64,000 bases of DNA from Bolinopsis microptera. Lineage: Eukaryota > Ctenophora > Tentaculata > Lobata > Bolinopsidae. A program made the position numbers and the translations under genes. The stretch lies in the NCBI RefSeq assembly GCF_026151205.1, contig NC_087072.1:17003669-17067668 (forward strand), read 5' to 3'. Positions 1,052-49,732 of this stretch are shown in pieces. The stretch's first letter is position 1. Each line of letters starts with the position of its first letter. A model generated the notes under the pieces. That model did not search any database. It had not been told where the DNA came from and saw only the letters and a program-made list of their open reading frames with translations.

Positions 1052-4000
1052 ATGTCAAGCAGACCAGCAGCAAAGCCCCGAGGGGCTGGGGCAGCTGGTA
1101 AAACGGGTGCTGCAAGCCGATCTAGCACTGTTAGTAAACCAGGGACCACGGGACGAGCTGGAGCAAAGGCCAGTGTATCTGGAAGGGGTGGTGCAAGGGG
1201 TGGTTCAACTGGTAGGGGTGGTAAAGCAGGGGCTGGTAAACGTGGTGGTCCGCAGAAATCTACTGCTGAGATCGCAAAACTTCCCCCTGAAGAGATCGAG
1301 AAATGTGACATTTCTGTTATTGAGAAGCTTCCTGCTAAAGTCATTGAGAAGCTCAGTCCTATTACGATTGCCAAGCTGAGTCCTGAGAAGATTGCGTCTC
1401 TTTCGCCAAATGTCATCAGCTCTTTAGATGCTACCATCATAGAATCACTTGACATTTCTGTCATTCAAACTTTAGATCCTGCCACCATCTCAAAACTTGG
1501 TCCTGACAAAGTAGAACAGTTGCCTCTAGAAACTGTGAGTAAACTGACCCCTGAATGTCTGAACACTCTACCTGTCTCCATTGTGTCTCAGCTGGAGTCC
1601 TCCGTTCTAAACACCTTGTCTCCTGATCTCCTCAACAAGTTAGAGCCAGATAAGATCAGAGAGCTGGACTCGGAGTGTGTGGCGTCTCTTGATACCAAGG
1701 TTCTCGAGTCATTAGGGACAGAATTCCTGATAGCCCAACCTGCATCAGTCCAATCAAAGCTGAGTAAAGAATTTATCCAACAGCTTAGTACTGCCAATCT
1801 CATGGTGCTGGATCCGTCGGTGTTCGATAAATGTGACATCGATTTCCTCAACGAAGCCGACCCCTCTATCTTGAACCAATTGAAGTCTTCTGTCTTAGAA
1901 AAGCTTAGTTTGAGCACTATCGAGCGTTTAGAGCCTTCAACAATCGAAAAGCTGTCTTTGGGTATCATCCAGAAGATAGACTACAGAATTATTGAGCAAC
2001 TGAGTTCAGAGATAATCAGCATGCTGCCCTCTTCCATCCTCAACAATATCTCTCCCAGTGCGCTTGAAAAGTTGGACCCCACAATTCTGGACACGGTTGA
2101 TGTGCCGGTTCTGGAGAAAGTGTCCCCGACTGTGCTCAGTAATTTGTCTAGTGACGTTCTTGAGAAGATGAGTATTTGTACAATCGCTAAACTTAACAAA
2201 TCTGCCATTCAGAGGCTGAGTTGTGAGGTGGTTGAAAAGCTTCCTTTGGATGTTATACAAGGGTTAGATTCACAGTTAATCGAGAAACTGAGTGTCAGTG
2301 TAGTGAATCAGCTTGATCCAACTGTAATTGAGAAGTTGTCAACTGACGTTATCAACACACTCGACAAAGAGGTAATCTCTAGACTGAGTCCTGATGTGAT
2401 TCAAGGTTTAGAGTTAGCTGTAATCAGTGAGCTGCCTCCAGCTACCTTGTCCAAATTGCCGTCAACCATCCTGCAGAAGTTGGATAAATCAGTCATTGAA
2501 ATGTTGGAGCCGGAGATTATCTCCCAAATGGATCTTGCAGTCATTGAAACTCTAAAACCAGAGGTTTTATGTACCTTGTCACCAGAAATTCTGTCCAAGC
2601 TGTCAAAACAGGTTTTAGAAAGGCTGCCAATAGAATCGTTGCAACATCTTCCTCCGGATCTAGTACAAACCCTTAGTCGTGACGTCATAAAAACCCTAGA
2701 CCCCTCATACATCTCACAGTTCAGTGTTGCTTTCATCGAAACATTGCCCACTGACGTTATAGAACAGCTCGACACTTCCGTCGTCAACCAACTGAGTATT
2801 CCAGTGATAGAGACATTGGACAAGACCGTGGTCTGTAAATTGGATATTTCTGTTATTGAGCAACTGGACCCATCTTTCCTTGACACTCTAGACAATGATT
2901 GTCTGTCCTTGTTAACACCACCTGTCCTAGCTAAACTTAAGTTAGAGGTACTTGAGGAGCTGGACCCCAGTATTCTCAACAAATTGGATGGTTTTGTGAT
3001 CGCTAAGTTGAAACCGGAGGTCATTGAACGGTTAGATCCCGTTGTGATCGAGAAGTTAGCTCCGGAAGTGATAGAAACTCTGAGCCCTAGCGTGATCAAC
3101 ACTCTATCTGGGGATGTAATCAAGAATCTAGATGTTCAGATAATCAGTCAGCTTGATATTAAAGTAATCGAGACGCTCGATATAGAAGTTCTGAACAATT
3201 TAAGTGTTGAACTAATTGAACAACTTGATATTGATGTTATAAAGAAACTGGACCCATCAGTTCTCAACAAAATATCTAAAAGGGTATTGAAAAAGCTGCC
3301 GACCTACGTCATTGAGACATTAGATGTGAAGGTTGTTGAAGGTTTAGGATTGTACATAATCAAGAAACTTGACCCTCAGATAATCCAAGGTTTAAGTAAG
3401 AATACTTTGAATCAGCTGCCAGCAGATGTCATCGCCATGTTTGACACAGAAGTTATAGAGTCACTCCGGCCCGATGTCATTGACAAACTTCCAATTTCCA
3501 CCATCCAGCGGCTCAGTGTTTCTACCATTGAGAAACTGGGGCCAGAAATACTCTGCAAGCTTGACATTGAGGTAATAACTCAGCTTGATCCTAAAATAAT
3601 TGAGAAGTTGGGTACTGATGTTATCCGACAATTACCTGGTGATATCATAGCCAAACTTTGTCCTGAAGCTATCTCCAAACTGGACAAATCATCACTTGAG
3701 CGATTACCCGTTGAAATAATCGCGACACTTTCTCCGGCAGTGATATCCAAGATGAAGACGGAGATAATAGAGGCCCTGCCAATGAGTTGCATTAGAACCT
3801 TAACCCCCATCTGTATCGAGAGACTTCCCATTGAGACCATACAGAAGTTGGACGTGGGTTGTATTTCCAACCTCTCTGTGTCCATACTTAATCAATTGAG
3901 TTTGGAAACTGTAAAAAAACTTCCAGCAAAAGTTGCTGAACAATTAGACAGCTCCATTATTGAGAAGCTCCCCTTGCAAACGATAGAGGGATTCAGCATC

Positions 4001-7000
4001 TCAACAATCGAGCGACTGCCACCTGATGTCATAGCTAAATTAAATATCGACATCATCAAGAGTCTTTCTGTTGAATGTCTGGAAACTTTGGATCCTGAAG
4101 TGCTTAACAAGCTCCCAGAAGATATTCTAGCACAGTTGAATCCTGATATTATCGAAGGTCTCCCTTTCTCTGCTATAAAAGATCTGCCCCTGGAGAATAT
4201 GCTGAAGTTGCCCATCGCAATCTTCAATCGTCAGAGAGTTGAAGACTTGGTAACTTTGCCTCTGGAGATAGTTGAGATGCTTGATATCAGAGTCTTATCT
4301 AAATTCCCAGCTAAGATTCTAGAGCAGTTGTCTCCAGCCGTCGCCATGCTTCTACCCTCTGACATTATCAGCAAGTTCGACCCTAACTTCATAGCAACTT
4401 TAGACAATAGCATTGTGGAAAGACTCGATGATGCAGTTTTAGAAAACCTCCCCCAAAATGTCCTTGCCAAGCTGAGTGTAGCTCGGCTGCAGTCCATATC
4501 ACCTAAGGTTTTACAGAAACTTGACAGCAAGATAATAGAAAAGTTACCTTCGGAAGTGATAGAACGATTTGAAAAGGAAGTCCTGAACTCACTATCTCCC
4601 AGAGCCCTGAGAAATCTCCCACCTGAGATTTTAGAGGAACTTGACATTCAGGTCATAGAAAGTCTGGACATCCACACGATCCAGCTGCTGAAACCATCAG
4701 TCATAGAAAAACTTAGTCCCCAGATAATAGCTCTCCTTGATAAAGCAACAATTCAGCAGCTTAGTTCCGAGATAATCAGTCAATTGGACACTTCGATGAT
4801 TCAAAGTTTAGATTCCAAACTAATCAACGAGCTTGACAATAAAGTTCTCAACAAGATGGAACCAGAGATTCTAAGTAAATTGCCACTGGGTAGAATTGCT
4901 ACACTTGACGTGGATACCATCCAAAGATTGCCACTCTCCATCATCTCAGAAATGCCTGTCAACATCATTGAACAGATGTCTCGGGAGGTCCTAGAGAAGA
5001 TGCCACTCAACAAGCTGGAGCATATATCTGACTCCCTCATCAGCAGTTTAACTGTCAAACTGCTGGAACACATGTCGATGAGGGACATGAAAAACCTAGA
5101 CTCCAAGTTCCTCTGCAAGCTCTCCACTACAGTCCTGAACGAGCTCCCTCCGTCAGTACTCCGCAAACTGCCAGCTAACAAGCTGAAGCTCCTTGACATA
5201 GCAACTCTAGAGCAGCTGGATGTGTTCATCATAGAGAAACTCCCGTCTAGTCTGGTGGAACAGTTAGATAACAGATTAATAGAGCGACTCAGTCCGGAGA
5301 TAATTGAAACACTCTCTCTCAGTACCATCTCCCAGCTTCCTCTTAGTACGATCAAACAGTTGAGTATCAAGACTATGCAGCGGCTAGATCCTTCTATCCT
5401 TGAGGGGCTACCGCTTAGTTTACTTGAACAGATGGATGTGGTGGTGATTCAAGAGTTGCATCCTAGGATAATTTCCAAGATGAATCCTGATATCTTTGGT
5501 AAATTAAGTGAGTCAGTTTTGGAGAAACTAGATCCTTCCGTCTTCACTAATATGAACCCAAGGAAAATAGAGGCTCTAAGCTTATCCGTGATAGAGACCA
5601 TGGACAACTCCATAATAGAGAAATTGAACCCGAAAGTAATCTGCAAACTACCTCCAAAAAGATTGGACAAGTTAGATCCTCGATTGTTAAGTCGTCTTGA
5701 TCCTAAATGCTTAAGAAAGCTCAATCCAAAAGTCATCGACAAGATAAACCCTAAAACTATCGAGCATTTGGATCCTAAAGTGATTGAAAAGCTAAATCCT
5801 AAGGTGATAGAGAAGCTCAACCCGCGTGTGATTGAAAGACTACATCCTTCGGCCATCAGTAAACTAAATACGAGAATAATCCAGAAGTTGAACGTGGCGG
5901 TTATAGAGAAGTTGCCAGGGAGTGTTATAGAGAGGTTATCTCCAGCGGTGCTGGTCCAGTTGTCACCTGCCGTCTTACATTGTCTGAAACCCACTGTGCT
6001 GGATGAGATCGAGAAGTATCTGTATAAACTGGAGATGAGGGATAGTAGAGATAGCTTCCCAGGTCTGGTACCTGATACCTTTCTTTCCTTACCTGCACTG
6101 TCACCTTTCTTTCCTTACCTGCACTGTACCTTTCTTATTTATAATGTTAGCTCCCTTACTATTTCCTTTCTTTTTATCAGTTCTACATGTGTTACCATGG
6201 TAACAAGTGCTCTGTTTCAGATGTGAAGTCAGTAGAACCAGCTGAAGAGTTCCACGATGCCCACGCACCAGAAAGGGAGGTTGTAGCAATAACTTCTGAT
6301 GGTCACGTGGATAATCTGTCTAAAGCAGCTACTGGCTCCAGAATCCCTGCCCCTGCTAGGAGCAACGCTATTCCTACTAAACTACCGGTATGTACATTCA
6401 CCACACATTACACAACTTTGAGTATTAATTTTACATCATCTTAGGAGAAATCCCAAAAAGGAGATTGCAAAAGAATTAATTATTCACTTCCTGTCCCCAT
6501 GACACTGAGTCACCAGAATATTCTGATCACCTAAAATACATATCATCGCTATTCTACACTTAACACTGTCAGACAAATCTGCGGTGTATTGCTGCGGATA
6601 CTTTTAAATAAGCTTAATAATTATACAAGTTTACATAAATTAGAATATTGCCTTGTTCAAATCTGAGACCAGTACAAAGTGAATAATTAAGTCTGTCTGC
6701 GTCAAATCAAATTGTCATGAAATGGTTACCCGCTAGTGGTAAGTTACAGTAACCACATAATCGCTAAACTGATTAATGTTGGTCACCGCTTACCATGGTT
6801 ACGTAAGTGGTTACTATGGTTACGATGATTCCCTGAAATTAACCTGAAACTGTTTCAGTCCCCCAAGAAACACGCTGAACCAACTCTAACCCTCAACTCT
6901 AACGGCCTGTAAGTAGATAACTGGTCCACAACTTGTACAATGACGACTGTGTGTACTTCTACTATTACTTGTTCCACTGTTGTGTACATGTACTTGTAAT

Positions 7001-10000
7001 TCTGTGTCTCATGTTGACCCAACTATAACTGTGCTGTGCTTGTACTTTTACTTTTATATCATCTTTAACCTTATTACGATGACAGAAATTGACTCCTTTG
7101 AAGTTTGAACCTGATTAATATAATATCACTGCGTTGTCATGTATTCGTGTATCATGATACAGTTCCTTTATACACTGTATATAATGTAGTTCTACTCTCC
7201 GCACTATATCAATAGTGAGCTGCAATAAGTCAATAATACATCCACATTACTTAGCTGTGTAGCGCTGAGAGGTCACGTGTTAACTGTATATTTGATACTC
7301 CAATACACACTGTCACGTGTAGTGTCCTAAGGAGCTACGTGTTCTGTTTGCTACTATTTTGTTTCAGCTCCCTCGTCCCTGCATGCCTAGAGAAAAGTTT
7401 AGTGTGCAGACAACATACAATTATTACAATTTTGTGCAGATAGGATTCATATCAGTTTGTTCAAAAAATATGTGGATGTGCAGTTAGAATTGCTCTTGTG
7501 CAGGCAACAAGGTTACCAGGTTAAGGCTTTTTCTACTCATGTGTCCCTCATACCATCACCATGGCTACGCGTATATATTTACATCCAATATATGAGAGAT
7601 CTTCTCACATTGCGTTGTTTCCTCGTAAATTAGGTTATACTTATTCTTCGAAAGCTGAAGGTATCTCATATTTTTAATAATTCAATGGCTCTATATTAAA
7701 TTTAGAGGTTTGTTTTATATACAATAAGTTGTTTCTTTTGTATACATTGAAAGTTGAACCGTGTAATAAATTGATCAATCCATATCCAGTTACATCGGAA
7801 CTTTTCGACACTGGTACTGAATACATCCCATATACATTACATGGAATACTTTTTGTACTGATTTCTCTTTACATAATACATATTACATAAGAGGTTCTCT
7901 ACATTATTATCTATATACCACTTTTCGCATCCCTACAAGTATAGTCACGGACCAGGGTAGAACATTACAGCGTAGGTGTGGCTACTAGTTAGTTATTCAA
8001 CTGTGTTACTGTGCTTTTTGTCACATTGCATAATATCGTTGTTAAACCTCTGGTAAGTGGTGTTCAACTTTCCGAGGAAAATGTCTGTGTGTATTATTTG
8101 AACACACCTAACTGGGTTTTAAAGTTGTATAATTGTTTAACAAATAATTCTAATAATTCCTTGAAAAGTGCAGGAATCCTAATTTGTGGGTTTTTGTTGT
8201 TTTGATCGGAACAGCATATTATATTATTAATTGATTGAAATGACAAGTCATGTTACCGACCACGTGTCATGCTATTTAGCACGTGTCATGTTACCTAATC
8301 ACGTGTTAATGATATAATTTGTAAAAGTGTGATTACTGATTATGTACCGTCATCCTTCACATGTTCACATGTACAATCTTTTAAATTTGTAAAATAGCAA
8401 TTGTTGTTGTTCTCTTTATTTTTCTATTCAGTTGTTGGCTTTGTAAATTGTATAGTTACATAGTCTCCTCTATTACTGTGCTGTTATAGAAACTTGGCTC
8501 CTGATTAGGCTCCAATCACACTGGCAGTGCACATAAAAATGACAAATGTGACTACCTGTGCGAGCTGCCTATTTCATCTGACAATACTTTAGTACTAACA
8601 CTGTGGTTCATTGTGTCCTTGATATAATGCTTGCCAATATCCAAACTTCCATCAGCTGTACATTTTAATGAATTACATTTACCAGTTGTCTGGTTGTCAA
8701 ACTGTACACACTTAACAGTACATTGTCGTACACACGCAAATGCTTTTGTCTAACGTTAAAAGAAAAAGTGTAAAATAGCGTAGAAAAGTGTACCTTTTTT
8801 ACTACACCATACATAAAAAGTGTAGTGTACAACCCCCGCCATCCCCCGCCCCCCCCCCCCCCCCCCCCCCCCCCCAAGCTGATTGGTTAATGGCTCTAAA
8901 AATTAATATTATTTGAAATCTTCCCACTTCTTTCAGGGATAATGAAAAGAACAACTCAGTAGAGGTTAAAGAACAGAACACTGCTCAGGTTGGTTAATCA
9001 GCACATTTATTGTACGATTATATAACTGGTCAGTGGTCATGGTAGTAATTCACCAGTCACCACCTTATCTGACCCCCAATTTAAGTAATTTCTTAGATTT
9101 ACGAGTTTTACTTTCATCTGGGTGGAAAAGATTTAGCATCCTTTATACCTTCTTACCTTCTATTTTGTTGATTGAATACATCTGGTGGATATTTGAACGC
9201 TGAGAGTGTGATGTTGATCATTAAACTTGTTCCCAGTCTGCAATAGTGATATCAGCAAGATGTCACCCCTTTAACCTGCTGGTATGTAAGGTATGAGGTG
9301 GAGCGTGCATACAACCGCAGATCACTTGTTACTACTCAAATGTACCCATCAAGCACTTTGTGCCGTCTGATATACAGTAATTGTGAAATGTGAATAAACC
9401 CATATTTGGTCCTATATATTCATATTGTATAACACTACTATGTGCTCCACATCTTTAACTGTAGTCAACCTAGATCGTTCCCAGCTATCCTGTCTTTATT
9501 TGTTTTGTGATTGTGTTATAGTAGTTGCCCCATATTTGAAATATTGACCTGAGCTAAAAACTACGGACTTGCATTTTTAATCACTCTTGGACTCAAAAAC
9601 AACACTGTTCAGGTACCAAACGTAAACAAAATGTCAATAGAATTGGTTACAACATCAAGCTCATGTCTCTATTTCAATGATCAGTAATTTCTTTAGTTTT
9701 TGTCTCAGCACACGTGACCAATGTTCACGTGACCAATGTTCACGTGACTCCACTAAAACCCACGTGACCTCCACAGACGTATTCAGAGGACCAAGTTGAG
9801 GCCTTGATTAATTCGGCCAGAAAGCAGGAGCGGGATCAGGTACAAGCCTCCATGTCATACCATACATGTGCATTTTATCATCATACTGTATGTGTACACT
9901 AGGGAGCATGGCCTGTTCCTAGAGCATGGCCTGTGTTTTTAAAGAATGGTTTGTTTAGACTAGACAATGTTGTTTGTTAGCTCATTTTGTTTTTTAAGCT

Positions 10001-12097
10001 TCCAACTCCGTTATGATTCATACATAACTCAAATTCCACTTATTGGAACACGCTGGGCCGCAAACCACTCTAGTTGCGCGTCCGTTTTTGGGCGGTAGTG
10101 TCAGTGCACGGTGTTACGAAATGAGCATGCTTGTGATTGTTATGCTGCATGTTGCAAATCTGAGAAACAGTATACTTTGAGTGTTTCATTTTACAGATAT
10201 TATCTAACGGAAATATATTAATGTGGCCCGACCAAAATCTCACAATCTTATTTGTGTAGCTGTTTTGTGTCAAATGTTTGGGGGTTGATTCGAAGCTTTT
10301 TACACTAACGTTTCCAAATTTACTGGTCGAAGATCTAAAGCTGTGGTTCAGGTATCAAAACTGAATGTCCTGCTGTTTGAAAACTTAGATTTATGCACAT
10401 AGCATTTCCGATAAACTTCTAGATTCATCCTATACTACATATATTATCTTCTTTAAAAATAAAGCAATCGCCCAATGCTCAATTTAATTTATAGTTACAT
10501 ACTAATATATATAATATATATAACACTATACTTGCCCACAGTGGGAAGCTGATAGAAGAGAACTAGAACTGTTAGTTGAGGAGAAAACCGACGCAGCTAC
10601 CAATCCCGCTAGTATGGGTCAGAACTCGGACAACGGCCTGGTGCGTTATTTTAATCTAAATCATATATCGAATGCACTTCACAAGCCAATTTTGAATTGA
10701 AGTAATTTCCAATAAATACAGGGCATCTATTCAGTCTTGGGCTGGTATCAAAATACACTGTATAGATTTGTTTTTATTAAGGAGCTAGTTTATATGGAGA
10801 GTCATTACATACTCGGGGACACTACAAATTTTGTCCCAGAATCGTTACAACAATGCGACTAAAAAGTAATGTTCCGAGCCGGATATTACATTAGTTGCAT
10901 ACGATAAAAATACATTCTCTAACATTTTGTTAGCATTCTCTCACAATGACAAAGAAGCAAGCTGAGCCGTGCGATTTGAGACATTTTCATATTTATCGGT
11001 TTATATGTTTTAATTTTGTGTGAATTTTGATGTAAAAGTATTGTTCTGTAATATTTTAAATCTTTCTGACTGAAGTAAGGCCAGAGTCTCAATCAACCAA
11101 TCAGAAAAATGGATGCCCTCTTACTGATCATGATTTATCTGCCAGGAGCTGAAGATAATGTCAGAGCTAAATAATGAGTACGCTGAATGTATGATGGCTC
11201 AGAGCAAGCGAACAGAAGACATTCTCTCAAAACAAATCAAGAAACTCAGTACTGACAACTCAGTATTGTTGAAAGAACTTGATGTCATGCACTCAGCTAT
11301 GTCAGATCTTCATAAGAGATATGATCGCGCTAGGGGCATCATCAACCAAATGAAAAAGGTAAAACTCCCAAGGAATTTTGTCCCAGTTGTCTTCTCGAGG
11401 AGTTGTTGTGAGCGCCAACTCTATTCGCAAATTTGAAAATATTGAAATTTGTGACCCTAATTTTACTCATTATTAACAGTAATTTGTTTAATCAGAGAGA
11501 AGACACCCTCGAAGAAGAGATTAGACAGTGCCAAGAAGAACTGAGGAACTCAGAGGAGAACTGCCGCTACATCTCCAAAACTTGTGACGACAAACTCGAG
11601 GAGTAAGTTTCCTTCTTTCAAATTATTTTTAAATTTCATTCGTCCCTAAAATTTTGTGTGTGAGTTTTATATCTCTTTTTATCCCAACATTTGGAGTACG
11701 AAACGTGTTAAGAGTTCGAGTGATATCTAGAGGTTATGAATTCCTTGTGATTTATTTATCTCCTTTAACTCTTCAGAGCAAACACGCGTATTGACATGAT
11801 TAAACAAGAAACAGAAAAGGGCACAATTATGATGGAGGCCTCTATAAAGCGACTCGAACTGGAATGCAAGTCATGGCACTCCAAATTCCTAGATAAGGTA
11901 TGATTCATCTGTGTTAATTTATGTTTTTTCCTAACTACATGCTTCTCCCTAACTGCATTTACTTTCTAGTTTCTCGTTCTATCCCAAATAGAAAAATTCA
12001 ACACTGGATGTTTCAGGAGAGCTCAGAGAAGGAGTTGATAGCGATCTGCGACAGTTTGATGGGCGTGAAGGAGCAGGAAATGGACGAAGAACAATAG
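1052..12097 (+). CDS. TACC-domain protein with about 197 octapeptide repeats (10 exons)
   Basis: Exons by splice consensus and phase: 1052-6062, 6221-6387, 6859-6908, 8937-8988, 9777-9839, 10542-10640, 11146-11358, 11496-11602, 11777-11897, 12017-12097 (TAG). All junctions are GT..AG, phases agree and the sum is 5964 nt, giving 1987 aa. Start: first ATG after an in-frame TAA. Order: basic Gly/Arg-rich head (about 1-70); octad repeats 77-1652 of type L-[DSPN]-P-x-[VIT]-[IL]-[ENSQ]-[KQTR]; a linker with SRIP at 1710-1713; a C-terminal coiled coil from about 1760. The end (MSDLHKRYDRARGIINQ, ELIAICDSLMG) matches the conserved TACC C-terminus (FSDLFRRYEKLKEVIE, ELTKICDELI in vertebrate TACCs). 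Known TACC proteins bind XMAP215/ch-TOG and act at centrosomes and microtubule plus ends; that role here is inference. The octad domain is not something I know from any TACC protein. Exons 3 and 4 are the least certain. Confidence 0.85.
1280..6007 (+). repeat. Coding array of about 197 octapeptide (24-bp) repeats
   Basis: From the Leu codon at 1280 to 6007 the reading frame is built of 8-residue units. The distance from the first unit Leu (residue 77) to the last clear one (residue 1645) is 1568 residues, exactly 196 x 8, so there is no net register slip. Typical units are LSPEVIEK, LDPSVLNK, LPADVIAM and LNPKVIEK. Position 2 is Ser/Asp/Asn/Pro, a helix N-cap preference, and Pro is common at position 3. 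Leu at 1 and Val/Ile at 5-6 form the hydrophobic face. Codons differ widely between units, so the array is old and kept at protein level. The last dozen units (about 5620-5890) are much more alike and richer in Asn-Pro-Lys. Confidence 0.95.
6909..8936 (+). other. Third intron of the TACC-like gene
   Basis: About 2 kb between GTAAGT at 6909 and TTTCAG ending at 8936. It holds no coding frame I trust. Its only marked feature is the cytosine run near its 3' end. Confidence 0.5.
8849..8875 (+). repeat. Poly-C run of 27 bases
   Basis: Uninterrupted cytosines about 60 bases upstream of the exon 4 acceptor. Similar C or G runs recur between 39.8 and 43.7 kb, where two of them clearly end fold-back elements. 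Confidence 0.9.
9714..9776. promoter_or_regulatory. Cluster of four CACGTGAC sites in an intron
   Basis: Four copies of CACGTGAC, an E-box core, lie within about 60 bases directly before the exon 5 acceptor. Two sit in a short tandem of TTCACGTGACCAATG. The spacing looks like local duplication. Binding by a bHLH factor is possible but unproven. Confidence 0.3.
9777..12097 (+). other. TACC coiled-coil domain exons
   Basis: Six exons (9777-9839, 10542-10640, 11146-11358, 11496-11602, 11777-11897, 12017-12097) encode about 227 residues of charged, heptad-rich, nearly proline-free sequence. It aligns by eye with the TACC domain: the MSDLHKRYDRARGIINQ block, then a K/E-rich coil, then the closing ELIAICDSLMG block before the stop. 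The length is close to the roughly 200 residues usual for the family. Confidence 0.85.
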
Positions 12098-14695: not shown

Positions 14696-15557
14696 TAGTA
14701 GAGGCTCTTACGGGCATTGTCTGCTCGATACGTTAGGGACCCCAGATACACCTTACTAGACGTATTTTTGACCGTAGAATCGATTGAAAGTGGTTTCAAG
14801 ATGATTGGACTGATTGTTCTGGGGTAAAATCGCAAAAAACCGATTTTTGGGCCAAAAATAGGCCAAAAAAACCATGTTTTTTGATATTTTGAGCAAGTTA
14901 ATTTTGTTGGCATGTCGGCAAAACTTGCATAAAGATAGCTAAAAGACAGCCGCACAAGATTGTATAAAAATAAAACAAATCCCTCTATTTGTTCTGAGGT
15001 AAAAATCCAAAAAAGTGGTAAAAATTTTGACTTTTTTGCTTGAAGTTTGAATAATTTTTTGCAGTTGTATTAAATCAACCCAAAAATAGTCACATCGTGT
15101 TTGCCTAAATTTTTCCTTTCCGAGAAGTACCCACTTCATATACTTTATCGAAGTTTGAATATTTTCACTCCGCAAGCGTTTTTGCCAAATTTTCGACGCG
15201 CACTACGCGCAAAAGCATTTAGTTGTTATCAATTGGCACCCGCGCGTTCATCATAAATTTCAAACAGCTATAACTCAGCGAGATTATGTCCGTTCTAGCT
15301 CATATTTTCACACTAAATAGAAAATAATGTGATCTTATTGCTGACAAAATATGAATATAATTACTCTATTTGCCTTAGAGTAATAGACTGTCAAAGTTTA
15401 AAACGCGCATTGGTATAGCACGTGACTAATAAGGCCAAATTTATACTTCTTAACATATTATCGATCCTTAGACATCATACTATTGTGTCCAATTAGCGGT
15501 TAGGTCTCTAAACTCGTAGCAGAAAACACGTCTTTTTGCCCGTAAGAGCCTCTACTA
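14696..15557 (+). mobile_element. 862-bp non-autonomous TIR element, copy A
   Basis: Inverted termini TAGTAGAGGCTCTTACGGGC at both ends, with a 3-bp duplication TAA (14693-14695 and 15558-15560). No transposase frame is present; the short frames inside are not meaningful. An inverted copy lies at 16405-17265. Three-base duplications are usual for CACTA/EnSpm and PIF/Harbinger elements. Confidence 0.85.
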
Positions 15558-15862
15558 TAATATGGGTTCTGCAGAAAAATGATTTTGCCAGTGGACTATT
15601 TGAGGTACGTACAGATGGTGTATGAATTCTGACTTAACTTAGGTAAAATTGATGACACAATAGACAGACTGTCGAGGTGGTAACAGCCGTATAATTATAG
15701 CAGTATAAGGGTCTGCCCACACTACGCCATGTGGCGACGGGCCACATGGCCCGATTAACCTAAACACACTGTGCCACTTGGCGTGGATTTAGCAAATCCG
15801 CGCCTCTATTCAGAGGCACGGATTTCCTGCCCACACTACGCCATGTTGCGACGGGCCACATG

Positions 15863-15939
15863 TTACCTGGGGACCCCAGGCTATTATGTTCATTAACATA
15901 GAGATTAGGCGGAATGACAGGCTGAGCGCGGCCCAGTAA
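15863..15939 (-). mobile_element. Short TTACTGGG element, copy 3
   Basis: Reverse-orientation copy flanked by a perfect 8-bp duplication GCCACATG (15855-15862 and 15940-15947). It is inserted into the Harbinger-like element. Confidence 0.85.
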
Positions 15940-16032
15940 GCCACATGGCGTGGGTCAAAAGGCACAGTGTGTTTAGAGCTCCCGCCACTAGTCACCGGAT
16001 TCACACAACGAGGCGCGTAGTGTGTTTAGAGC

Positions 16033-17269
16033 GGATGATAATTAATCACTCTACACTCGACTGTCACGTGACTTTTTCAACCCGTTCTCTAGCTGGTCCT
16101 GAACGACTATTCGAAATCTTAACCCTCTTATCTGATCCCAACCCTAACCCTAACCCAATCCTTAACAAAAGCATATGCTGAAACCCTAACCCTAACGAGA
16201 AATTAGACTAACTTCCTTATACGGTCATATCACGTGATCGAGACAGTTTTTCGCCTATATCTCGTCAGGGGAGCATTTTAACCCTGTCATGGGGGGTGAT
16301 TCGTAATCAGCGTCTGAAAATACATCGATTGAAGTTGGTTTCAACTGTCGGGGGCCCTTTTAGAACAATCTCGAAGATCGACTGTAGAGTGATTTAGTAC
16401 GCTCTAGTAGAGGCTCTTACGGGCAAAAAGACGTGTTTTCTGCTACGAGTTTAGAGACCTAACCGCTAATTGGACACAATAGTATGATGTCTAAGGATCG
16501 ATAATATGTTAAGAAGTATAAATTTGGCCTTATTAGTCACGTGCTATACCAATGCGCGTTTTAAACTTTGACAGTCTATTACTCTAAGGCAAATAGAGTA
16601 ATTATATTCATATTTTGTCAGCAATAAGATCACATTATTTTCTATTTAGTGTGAAAATATGAGCTAGAACGGACATAATCTCGCTGAGTTATAGCTGTTT
16701 GAAATTTATGATGAACGCGCGGGTGCCAATTGATAACAACTAAATGCTTTTGCGCGTAGTGCGCGTCGAAAATTTGGCAAAAACGCTTGCGGAGTGAAAA
16801 TATTCAAACTTCGATAAAGTATATGAAGTGGGTACTTCTCGGAAAGGAAAAATTTAGGCAAACACGATGTGACTATTTTTGGGTTGATTTAATACAACTG
16901 CAAAAAATTATTCAAACTTCAAGCAAAAAAGTCAAAATTTTTACCACTTTTTTGGATTTTTACCTCAGAACAAATAGAGGGATTTGTTTTATTTTTATAC
17001 AATCTTGTGCGGCTGTCTTTTAGCTATCTTTATGCAAGTTTTGCCGACATGCCAACAAAATTAACTTGCTCAAAATATCAAAAAACATGGTTTTTTGGCC
17101 TATTTTTGGCCCAAAAATCGGTTTTTTGCGATTTTACCCCAGAACAATCAGTCCAATCATCTTGAAACCACTTTCAATCGATTCTACGGTCAAAAATACG
17201 TCTAGTAAGGTGTATCTGGGGTCCCTAACGTATCGAGCAGACAATGCCCGTAAGAGCCTCTACTACTCG
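16033..17269 (+). mobile_element. Element with internal telomere-like CCCTAA tracts, copy A
   Basis: Its imperfect inverted ends share TCACTCTACA followed by CTCGA or GTCGA. It is flanked by the 9-bp duplication GTTTAGAGC (16024-16032 and 17270-17278). Without the inserted 861-bp element it is about 375 bp. Short runs of CCCTAA lie at about 16138-16160 and 16182-16198. A second copy is at 47820-48169 and a degraded third at about 53100-53310. Confidence 0.7.
16405..17265 (-). mobile_element. 861-bp non-autonomous TIR element, copy B
   Basis: Near-identical to copy A in reverse orientation, with the same inverted termini. It is flanked by the 3-bp duplication CTC. It is inserted in the telomere-like element. 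Confidence 0.85.
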
Positions 17270-18417: not shown

Positions 18418-19503
18418 ATGGTGAATACAACAGTGACCGAGCAAGCCTTCAATAAGGCAGCAGATATGACCTACGGATCTATCTGTTGTCTTTTCTTCCT
18501 CATCGGAACAATTGGAAACCTAATCAGTTTCATATACTTCAAATCAAATAGAAGGGATATCTCTAATGTCATTTACATGATTATAACTGGAAATGACATC
18601 TTGATTAGCATAATAATCATTCCAGTTGGAATTTCATTCCTATCAAACAGACAACCAGGTCTTTGGTTTGCGAGTGAATACGGTTGCGTGGTTTGGGTGT
18701 ACTTATGGTATATATCAGTGCCATTGAGCATCTTTCTTGTAATATGTCTAAGTATAAGCAGGACAATTGCACTGCTCAGACCCTTTAAACAACAAAATAT
18801 TAAATATCTCATTATATCGGTGATAACGTATTCAGTGCTGGTATTAGCCCTGGATATAAGATTCCATATGTATGACTTTACAGGCATATCTTATGACTCC
18901 GACTACTTACGCTGTAACATATTTGTAACTAGTAATTTAATTACAGGAACTGAGTTCTTTAACTTGCTAGTTATTAGAAACTTAACCTTCATTGCCCCGA
19001 CTTTTGTTGTTGCTACGAGCTGCATCATATCAGCAGTGTTGCTCAGAAGAAGTGCCGTTCAAGTGCAACAACAAGAAGAGCTTCAACGTTCCAGGAATAG
19101 AGCGACGGTAACAATTCTGATGTTCGCTCTGCTCTATGGAGTCTGCAACATACCCATAGCTATTACAAATATCCTCAGAACATACATGTGGTTTACTAAT
19201 GACTATGAATGGTTCTACAGTTTGCATCAGTTTGATACACAGTACTATTACGATAACGCCGTGAAAACTCTACTCTTAGCTGCTAACTCTGCAGCTAATC
19301 CGGTTCTCTACTTTTGGAGAATGCCTGCTCTGAAAGAATGTACTTTGTCAAGTATCAGGAGGATATCAAGACTAATTAGAGAAGTCACAAGAGCAGCAAA
19401 CAATGTCCGCCAAGTAGGAGAAGAATGTGAAAACAGTGTCGATCAGAACATCAACGTAACTCCAAATCCACTAGCAGCTGCTACCAAGGAGACCAGATTA
19501 TAA
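18418..19503 (+). CDS. Rhodopsin-like (class A) G-protein-coupled receptor
   Basis: An intronless frame of 361 aa starting at ATG 18418. Seven hydrophobic segments are visible. TM1 carries the Gly-Asn pair (N34) and TM2 an Asp (D60). C90 at the top of TM3 probably pairs with C166 in the second extracellular loop. The DRY position reads S-R-T (R115 kept), followed by the usual Pro two turns later. TM7 ends in NPVLY (294-298), the NPxxY motif. The N-terminus has an Asn-Thr-Thr glycosylation site. The tail is short, polar and basic. Length and motifs are normal for class A. The ligand cannot be told; single-exon receptors like this are common in expanded invertebrate families. A 3' splice-like TTTAGCAG just before the ATG could mark a 5'UTR intron. 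Confidence 0.9.
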   Translation: MVNTTVTEQAFNKAADMTYGSICCLFFLIGTIGNLISFIYFKSNRRDISNVIYMIITGNDILISIIIIPVGISFLSNRQPGLWFASEYGCVVWVYLWYISVPLSIFLVICLSISRTIALLRPFKQQNIKYLIISVITYSVLVLALDIRFHMYDFTGISYDSDYLRCNIFVTSNLITGTEFFNLLVIRNLTFIAPTFVVATSCIISAVLLRRSAVQVQQQEELQRSRNRATVTILMFALLYGVCNIPIAITNILRTYMWFTNDYEWFYSLHQFDTQYYYDNAVKTLLLAANSAANPVLYFWRMPALKECTLSSIRRISRLIREVTRAANNVRQVGEECENSVDQNINVTPNPLAAATKETRL

Positions 19504-28184: not shown

Positions 28185-28655
28185 TTAACTAGAAGTTAAC
28201 TTGAGGTAATATTCTTTTGGTGATTGTATATATAATATAATAATTTTAAAAATTTGGGGTCTTATCAAAGCTTTGTAAATGGATATCATCACAGATTTTT
28301 CCCTGATAATCAGATTTCTAACAATCCAACATATCATTCTGTTGGCTTTAGATATTGAAGCCTTTATCTGTTCATTCCATAGCAGAGAGTTATGGGTTAT
28401 AACTCCCAAGTCTTTTTCCTGTACAGATTCTGCCAATGTAACTCCATTAAGAGAATAACTTGGGTTATCGTTAACATCTAAATGCATTACCGAACACTTA
28501 GTAGGATTAAACTTTAAAAGCCATTTACTCTCCCACATCTCTAGTTCGTTCAGATCATTAACTATAGTTTCATGCTCGGAGGCATTAGCTATAAGCTTAA
28601 GATCATCAGCAAATATTTTAACTTTACTTTTAATGTTATCTGGTAAATCATAGAT
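28185..28655 (-). pseudogene. Non-LTR retrotransposon reverse-transcriptase fragment
   Basis: Minus-strand translation gives an RT palm: the catalytic F-A-D-D box (codons at about 28601-28614), then WLLKFNPTKC and EKDLGVITHNSLLWNEQI, and a later ALIRPQIF. These are standard blocks of CR1/Jockey-like ORF2 proteins. It is open for about 150 codons but truncated at both sides. Confidence 0.85.
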
Positions 28656-28850
28656 TTGCCATAATGAGGCTTTTGTCCTGGCTGGTCTTGGCTGCCAGAA
28701 GTGTTGCTACTCGTTTAAAGAACATGGTAGCTTGTGGGCCCATACCTCCGGTGGTCGAGAATACAAGGCAATTGCACACAAACCTCGCTTCTCGATTAGG
28801 AACATGACAGACAACAATAAAAATTCCGTATACCACTGCAGCTGATCTCC

Positions 28851-48663: not shown

Positions 48664-49732
48664 ATGGGATGTTGCGGGGGTGACGACACATCAGAAAAAA
48701 GGTACAGTAAGCAGCTTGAGGAGCAAATCATGGAAGATGCTGAAGAGTCGGCAAGAGAAGTTAAGCTGCTGCTATTGGGGGCTAGAGAATCTGGCATATC
48801 AACTGTTATGAAGCAGATGGTTATCTTCCACAAGTCAGGATACAACGAGGAGAGTCGAAAGAAGTATATAAATTGTATCCTAAATAACGCTCTTGTGTCA
48901 CTCAGCAACATTCTACAAGCTATGAACTCTATAACGCCTCATGTCGAATTTGCCAACTCAGAACGGAAACCTGATGGTGAAAAGCTCTTGTCCTATGAGC
49001 TGTTGGATACAACGGCAACTCAACTCCCTGATGGTGCACCTGAGGTCATGAAGGCTTTGTGGGCTGATGGGGGTGTTCAGGCGTGCTTCCAGCGCTCCAA
49101 TGAGTACCAACTCATGCATTCAGCAAAATACTACCTAGATGCCTTGGATAGGATCTGTGAAACTAACTTTATTCCTAATGAGCAAGATGTGTTAAGATGC
49201 AGGGTGCTAACAACTGGTATCGTCGAAGAACATTTTTCCCAACAAGGTTTACATTACCGCATATTTGATGTTAGTGGTCAAAGATCTGAAAGAAGAAAGT
49301 GGATCCATTGCTTTGAAGGAGTAACTGCTGTCATCTTTTGTGCATCACTCAATGCCTATGATTTGGTTCTGGCTGAAGATGAGGAAACAAACAGGATGCA
49401 CGAAAGTATGAAGCTCTTTGATTCAATATGTAATAACAAATGGTTTACGGATGCATCAATTCTCCTTTTCCTGAATAAGAAAGATCTCTTCGAGAAGAAA
49501 ATAACCAGGTCTTCTCTAAAGATATGCTTTCCTGAGTATAATGGTGCAGACGAATATACAGAGGCTGGTCAGTACATTCAAGGTAAATACGAAATCCTCA
49601 ACAGAACCGAAAACAGAAAAATTCGCACAAAATTTTACCTGTGCTACCGACACCAGTAACCCCCAGTTCGTCTTTGACGCATTAACAGATATCATCATCA
49701 AGAATAACACGAAAGACTGTGGACTGTTTTAA
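48664..49732 (+). pseudogene. Intronless G-protein alpha subunit copy (Gi/o-like), frameshifted
   Basis: The main frame (48664-49659, 331 aa) starts MGCC, with the myristoylation and palmitoylation sites of Gi/o proteins. It keeps R in the TTGIVE switch I block, NKKD, and DVSGQRSERRKW for switch II. The P-loop is GARESGIST instead of GAGESGKST, so a glycine is replaced by Arg and the phosphate-binding Lys by Ile. Switch II has DVSGQ instead of DVGGQ. A one-base surplus in the T-run near 49631 moves the last part (TCATDT ... DCGLF) into the next frame, ending at 49732. Parent genes have introns, so this is probably a retrocopy. If expressed it would be expected to bind GTP poorly. A sequencing error could explain the frameshift but not the P-loop. 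Confidence 0.85.

Follow-up and report, generated by a model that had tools for sequence, protein, structure and literature searches.

A single gene in a 64,000-nucleotide window of the Bolinopsis microptera genome (contig NC_087072.1) probably encodes an animal TACC-family protein with an N-terminal rod that is predicted to fold and would serve as a stiff strut, linking a second surface to a microtubule end or organising centre. Ten exons with GT-AG junctions, at positions 1052-12097 of the forward strand of the window, join into one frame of 1987 residues whose stop codon ends at 12097 (Table 1). From N- to C-terminus, the protein comprises a basic Gly/Arg-rich head, 197 octads, a linker and a TACC coiled coil. 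An earlier note on this DNA had proposed such a layout, with about 197 octads spliced through a linker to a TACC coiled coil behind a basic head, and the reading frame, codon score, octad register and TACC_C profile confirm it at the level of the gene model.

Table 1. Features of the octad-TACC gene, with positions counted from the first base of the window.
Feature	Position	Strand	Basis or description
Exon 1: head, octad array and end helix	1052..6062	+	open frame of 5011 bases
Basic Gly/Ala/Arg-rich head	1052..1258	+	frame translation; 69 residues, net charge +15
Octad array	1259..5986	+	197 units of 24 bases, zero indels; position 1 D/S/P, position 5 I/L, position 8 L
Predicted helix of 21 residues following the octads, possible end cap	5990..6052	+	AlphaFold2 model starting at 5291, its residues 234-254
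Proposed intron 1	6063..6220	+	alternative limits 6068-6180
Exon 2, linker	6221..6387	+	gene model, codon score
SRIP (residues 1710-1713), candidate EB1-binding motif	6337..6348	+	sole SxIP in the protein
Exon 3, linker	6859..6908	+	gene model, codon score
Exon 4, linker	8937..8988	+	gene model, codon score
Exon 5	9777..9839	+	gene model, codon score
Exon 6	10542..10640	+	gene model, codon score
Exon 7, TACC coiled coil	11146..11358	+	gene model, codon score
TACC_C match over exons 7-10	11152..12058	+	residues 1817-1975 of 1987; residues 57-215 of the shorter piece
Exon 8, TACC coiled coil	11496..11602	+	gene model, codon score
Exon 9, TACC coiled coil	11777..11897	+	gene model, codon score
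Exon 10, last part of TACC coiled coil, with the stop codon	12017..12097	+	gene model, codon score

Judged by codon score, the spliced frame ranked first in every one of the ten exons, although exon 1, which served to train the score, is no independent test of the frame. It is also the sole stop-free frame in 9 of the 10 exons, and in exon 10 it carries the terminal stop only, with one other frame open too. Between two versions of the model, exon limits shifted by 1 base at three exon ends and one exon start.

The earlier note had suggested comparing the C-terminal residues with the TACC profile. Pfam TACC_C (PF05010) matched them with 64.2 bits (cut-off 29.9; E 1.8e-17; profile positions 43-200 of 201), which puts the coiled coil at the C-terminus of the gene model, and none of nine position-preserving shuffles matched. 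A shorter piece starting at residue 1761 scored 66.9 bits. The best solved match of the TACC part, in a small library, was TACC3 (5lxn, E 0.0034), and four of its five matches in the genome were its own exons, the fifth having an E value of 0.42. Profile, frame and codon evidence together support a TACC C-terminus joined in frame to the octads. The ch-TOG-binding stretch of human TACC3 (about 670-688) falls at the unmatched edge of the profile match, which begins at profile position 43. In XTACC3, two C-terminal Asp (Asp922/923) are needed for XMAP215 binding; the protein has ICDSL where TACC3 has ICDDL, and one of the two Asp seems kept if these residues pair with Asp922/923, as we infer.

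The joining of exon 1 to exon 2, and hence the continuity of the transcript, is drawn from the gene model rather than from cDNA. The same stretch could hold two neighbouring genes, an octad-rod gene with its stop at 6224-6226 and a separate TACC gene starting at ATG 6187 or receiving a trans-spliced leader, an arrangement that we regard as quite unlikely. In favor of two genes, the unspliced frame of exon 1 runs to that stop, the ATG shares its frame with exon 2, the donor of intron 1 (CAG/GTCTGG) is weak, and trans-splicing occurs in ctenophores. However, the frames of two such genes would overlap by about 40 bases, the poly(A) signals AATAAA and ATTAAA are absent from 4838-7695, and positions 6063-6180 resemble an intron in being 75% pyrimidine. 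Moreover, the frame is preserved by two donor/acceptor pairs, the second using a donor at 6068 and an acceptor at 6181. We favor a single gene.

The octads start at residue 70 and keep their register unbroken throughout the array. Positions 5 and 8 are both hydrophobic in 191 of the 197 units, against a mean of 30.6 and a maximum of 47 in 2000 shuffles, and identity between residues reaches 0.305 at lag 8 compared with 0.04-0.09 at lags up to 40 other than the multiples of 8. Synonymous codons of the octads are saturated: identical residues share codons at a rate of 0.2963, where 0.2956 is expected from usage (43279 pairs). Over all 197 octads, similarity at lag 1 and lag 3 exceeded 199 of 200 permutations. 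This excess disappeared once the last 17 octads were removed, and the permutation test revealed no neighbour similarity among octads 0-179. Part of the array may thus be younger, since the last 16-18 octads resemble one another more than chance allows.

Could the octads be an unfolded or recently expanded minisatellite without structure? The genome is rich in 24-base and other minisatellites that translate to octad-like peptides, and the mutual likeness of the last octads fits recent expansion. Octad-like matches numbered 43 in the genome, one being the present gene; 11 of the other 42 (L007-L017) were examined and each lies inside a tandem array, with L009 and L010 belonging to one array and L014, L016 and L017 to another. 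The locus L013, with 24-base units 91% alike and LTAEIVAM-like octads interrupted by 2 stops in 352 codons, was counted as a minisatellite, though it resembles the octad repeat class. Yet DNA units in the examined loci are 91-99% alike, whereas tandem-repeat software found just 1.9 copies in the present array. Codon sharing at usage level, the lack of neighbour similarity in octads 0-179 and a covariation specific to octads three units apart likewise speak against such an unstructured minisatellite, which we consider very improbable. Rather than low-complexity sequence, the array appears to be a solenoid that folds and has long been conserved.

Residues at position 6 of an octad covary with those at position 1 of the octad three units further on (i to i+3; z 9.05), whereas the other 24 offsets tested gave z ≤ 2.45. 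Information at this pair reached 0.730, while none of 20000 shuffles exceeded 0.548, the signal was present in each half of the array tested (z 5.7 and 5.2), and Glu-Ser pairs were enriched (odds 10, p 1e-10). This covariation points to about three octads per turn. Pairing of Lys/Arg with Asp/Glu at i+3 was absent (odds 0.99), which counts against the rod that we propose, and no charge periodicity stood out along it. AlphaFold2 predicted that all 28 octads modelled with a 7-row alignment form a short helix (pLDDT 94.2), as do 28 of 29 octads of another segment modelled without an alignment (pLDDT 82.6). The octad sequence itself appears to bear the mark of a regular fold, at about three units to the turn. 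Internal covariation among numerous old repeats can thus betray contacts within a protein from one sequence, without any relative. The earlier note had also imagined a scaffold or spacer for microtubule or centrosome assembly: codon saturation, covariation and the AlphaFold2 helices strengthen the spacer idea for the octads, and a role at microtubules or centrosomes is what TACC family membership, the one ground for it, would suggest.

In the TACC family (TACC1-3, D-TACC, TAC-1, Alp7), the C-terminal coiled coil is preceded by a long N-terminus, as here. Other TACC N-termini are mostly disordered and hard to study, whereas this one consists of 197 regular octads. Titles and abstracts of mostly non-subscription literature yielded no description of an octad-built TACC N-terminus or a like architecture, and a similarly weighted literature search found no paper on TACC in ctenophores or placozoa.

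The nearest solved sequence to the octads is HeliScrew4 (PDB 9zem), whose octads S/T-P-E-x-I-A-x-L run in the same register (E 7.8e-8 by sequence; E 2e-12 by octad profile over 109 residues). The 8-residue period and the N-cap, Pro and core positions are common to both sequences; 9zem was not among the fold matches listed in structure searches with the octad models. HeliScrew4 differs in having 120 residues and no link to TACC; no paper on it was found in titles and abstracts of mostly non-subscription literature. Fold matches of the octad models to armadillo proteins and mesothelin were weak to middling. Mesothelin, an extracellular animal protein built as a superhelix of helices, was the top Foldseek match (8cx3_B, E 9.3e-4, probability 0.92), but its TM-score was just 0.2-0.3 and its family was not among the seven Pfam rows for exon 1 (E up to 1). 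Armadillo repeat proteins (importin alpha, beta-catenin) have a repeat of about 42 residues, compared with an octad period of 8. A search of BFVD with the octad models returned nothing at E ≤ 0.001.

Among profile matches to exon 1, Phage_TAC_7 reached 48.3 bits (cut-off 25), yet no single stretch passes, so the total adds up from small, partial matches spread over the repeat. RPAP1_N (25.2 bits, cut-off 25.3), DUF7785 (21.6 bits, cut-off 27) and NCBIfam PRK15362 (18, cut-off 540) fell below threshold. Leucine-rich-repeat matches in the PDB profile search shared only the Leu spacing and were rejected because both octad models are helical. No homologue was found for the linker-TACC region, searched as part of the full-length protein at E 0.01 against 3376 candidates, for the octad region at E 0.001 among the 7996 candidates with most words in common, or with the octad alignment A2, which includes whole-octad gaps, among 7999 candidates (E 0.001). 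We do not read these results as absence, because the TACC part scores even a solved TACC3 at E 0.0034 in a small library and the protein collection may hold few animal proteins.

How might such a molecule work? Each octad would form one short helix over positions 2-5, N-capped by the Asp, Ser or Pro of position 1, with core residues at positions 5 and 8. The superhelix would complete a turn about every three octads, or 24 residues, giving approximately 66 turns. Armadillo solenoids rise 9-10 angstrom per turn; with the same rise, the predicted rod would measure about 60 nm. The TACC coiled coil would dimerise and dock the microtubule polymerase XMAP215/ch-TOG, while the basic head, at the opposite end of the rod, would attach to a polyanion such as the acidic lattice of the microtubule. 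One candidate EB1 motif, an SRIP of the SxIP type, lies in the linker. The whole molecule would then be a strut of fixed length, from a microtubule end or organising centre to a second surface.

More tentatively, it is possible that the TACC N-terminus became, in one animal lineage, a stiff micro-helix rod of about 66 turns whose length was long held, forming a protein ruler that spans from docks for the microtubule polymerase to a second surface, either in the spindle or in compound cilia. With countable folded repeats, such a TACC protein would make it possible to test directly if the family sets distances at the ends of microtubules. It is unlikely, in our view, that the fused protein acts away from the spindle and centrosome, for example as a linker in the giant compound cilia of ctenophores, a reading to which the lobate ctenophore source and a precedent for lineage-specific ciliary linkers lend some weight. 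CTENO64 and CTENO189 are described as lineage-specific linker proteins between the cilia of ctenophore comb plates (PMC11184263). For ctenophores, with their giant compound cilia, the gene would be a novelty of the cytoskeleton.

Judged by its profile match, the protein belongs to the TACC family. The Pfam TACC_C profile (PF05010) matched it with 64.2 bits against a cut-off of 29.9, over profile positions 43-200 of 201; a shorter piece gave 66.9 bits (runner-up family, 19.3), and none of nine shuffles preserving residues modulo seven matched. Four of five genome matches to the TACC part were the gene's own exons (fifth, E 0.42). A PF05010 scan of the genome returned no matches and is uninformative, the exons being so small. 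Alignment with TACC3 (5lxn; 70 residues, E 0.0034) places ICDSL here at ICDDL of TACC3. XTACC3 requires two Asp for XMAP215 binding, according to PMC4200520; the DD of ICDDL would be those residues, one of the two then being kept here. PMC11921806 places ch-TOG binding near residues 670-688 of human TACC3, which correspond to the unmatched edge of our PF05010 alignment.

The window lies on contig C1 (26.2 Mb) of a 264.65-Mb genome in 232 contigs. Ten GT-AG exons give a spliced frame of 1987 codons and one stop. This frame is the sole stop-free one in nine exons (exon 10 has another open frame) and ranks best by codon score in all ten, the score having been trained on exon 1 of the same gene; about 2.3% of 167-base intronic stretches are open by chance as exon 2 is. 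The model's weak point is the junction of exon 1 with exon 2. Its donor, CAG|GTCTGG, is poor, unspliced exon 1 stays open until a stop at 6224-6226, and an ATG at 6187 shares the frame of exon 2, so the TACC part may be a gene of its own, apart from the octad gene. Arguing instead for a single spliced gene are the 75% pyrimidine content of 6063-6180, the lack of polyadenylation-type hexamers (AATAAA, ATTAAA) in 4838-7695, and a second in-frame splice pair (donor 6068, acceptor 6181).

From residue 70, 197 octads follow one another without indel, with hydrophobic residues at positions 5 and 8 in 191 units (shuffle maximum 47). The commonest residues at positions 1 to 8 are D/S/P, P, S/E, V/I, I/L, E, K and L (tally of 198 units). 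Where two octads carry the same residue, its codon matches at the expected level (0.2963 vs 0.2956; 43279 pairs; adjacent octads 0.277, 477 pairs), and octads 0-179 lack neighbour similarity (z -1.44 to 2.32, lags 1-24). We conclude that the array is mostly old, its register preserved. The last 16-18 octads, however, resemble each other beyond chance. The last 17 (5579-5986) form a basic stretch rich in Asn, Pro and Lys, with units closer to one another than those before them; this end may be younger, or may differ in function. By 20-octad block, net charge is acidic in 9/10 and +10 in the last.

Octad-like genome matches are located on contigs C1, C2 and C6-C13. In contrast to the old array, the 11 other matches examined, out of 42, are tandem DNA with units 91-99% alike. 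At these loci (L007-L017) the genome is rich in 12-, 16-, 24- and 48-base minisatellites; one of them, L013, has 2 stops in 352 codons and would translate into octads resembling LTAEIVAM.

Among 540 position/offset combinations scanned for covariation, the top link (z 9.9) joined position 6 of octad i to position 1 of octad i+3. It recurred in both halves (z 5.7, octads 0-89; 5.2, octads 90-179; 60 shuffles each), and across offsets -12 to +12 reached z 9.05 at +3, with no other offset exceeding 2.45; information at +3 was 0.730 against a maximum of 0.548 in 20000 shuffles. Glu at 6 co-occurs with Ser at 1 (38/50 Ser; odds 10.25, p 1.1e-10). Asp at 1 is associated with Asn/Gln/Ser/Arg (odds 4.85), and Pro with Lys (odds 11.7) or Ala (odds 5.7). 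Acid-acid pairs are depleted (odds 0.14, p 2.5e-8), and Lys/Arg showed no association with Asp/Glu (odds 0.99). Position 5 is identical in 102/179 neighbouring octads (z 5.1), with Ile and Leu in runs (1259-5578), probably reflecting packing of neighbours. These identical neighbours have 21 codons in common against 30.6 expected, so their likeness does not stem from recent duplication. The covariation and the position-5 likeness suggest a solenoid of 24 residues per turn, octad i lying against octad i+3; residue 6 would then be close to the helix N-cap in the following turn.

TACC proteins act via a C-terminal coiled coil binding XMAP215/ch-TOG, as PMC4200520 and PMC11921806 describe. Here the coiled coil would be a dimeric dock, the octads a rod of ~66 turns, and the basic head (charge +15) a second binding end. 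Armadillo solenoids rise 9-10 angstrom per turn; assuming that rise, the rod would measure ~60 nm. The linker's SRIP, the protein's only SxIP, is a candidate EB1 site. The octad type has a solved example; of a TACC family member joined to an octad array at such scale, we found no description in the literature searched.

Features of the proposed TACC-octad gene and its surroundings (window positions)
Feature	Position	Strand	Remarks
Exon 1	1052-6062	+	
Exon 2	6221-6387	+	
Exon 3	6859-6908	+	
Exon 4	8937-8988	+	
Exon 5	9777-9839	+	
Exon 6	10542-10640	+	
Exon 7	11146-11358	+	
Exon 8	11496-11602	+	
Exon 9	11777-11897	+	
Exon 10	12017-12097	+	
Large inverted repeat	14696-17265		arms 14835-15557 and 16405-17127, 723 bases, 98% complementary
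Outer arms of inverted repeat	14696-14881 and 17080-17265		97%
Rhodopsin-family receptor gene, intronless	18421-19500	+	Pfam 7tm_1, E 3.7e-16
Reverse transcriptase fragment, weak	28185-28703	-	RVT_1, 23.8 bits, under cut-off 29.6
Intronless frame, 767 codons	34207-36507	+	no Pfam match at E 0.01
G-protein alpha subunit, single exon	48664-49656	+	Pfam G-alpha, E 5.2e-110

Elsewhere in the window, the G-protein alpha gene is perhaps a retrocopy and the 767-codon frame perhaps a transposon protein; the inverted repeat looks like a foldback element.
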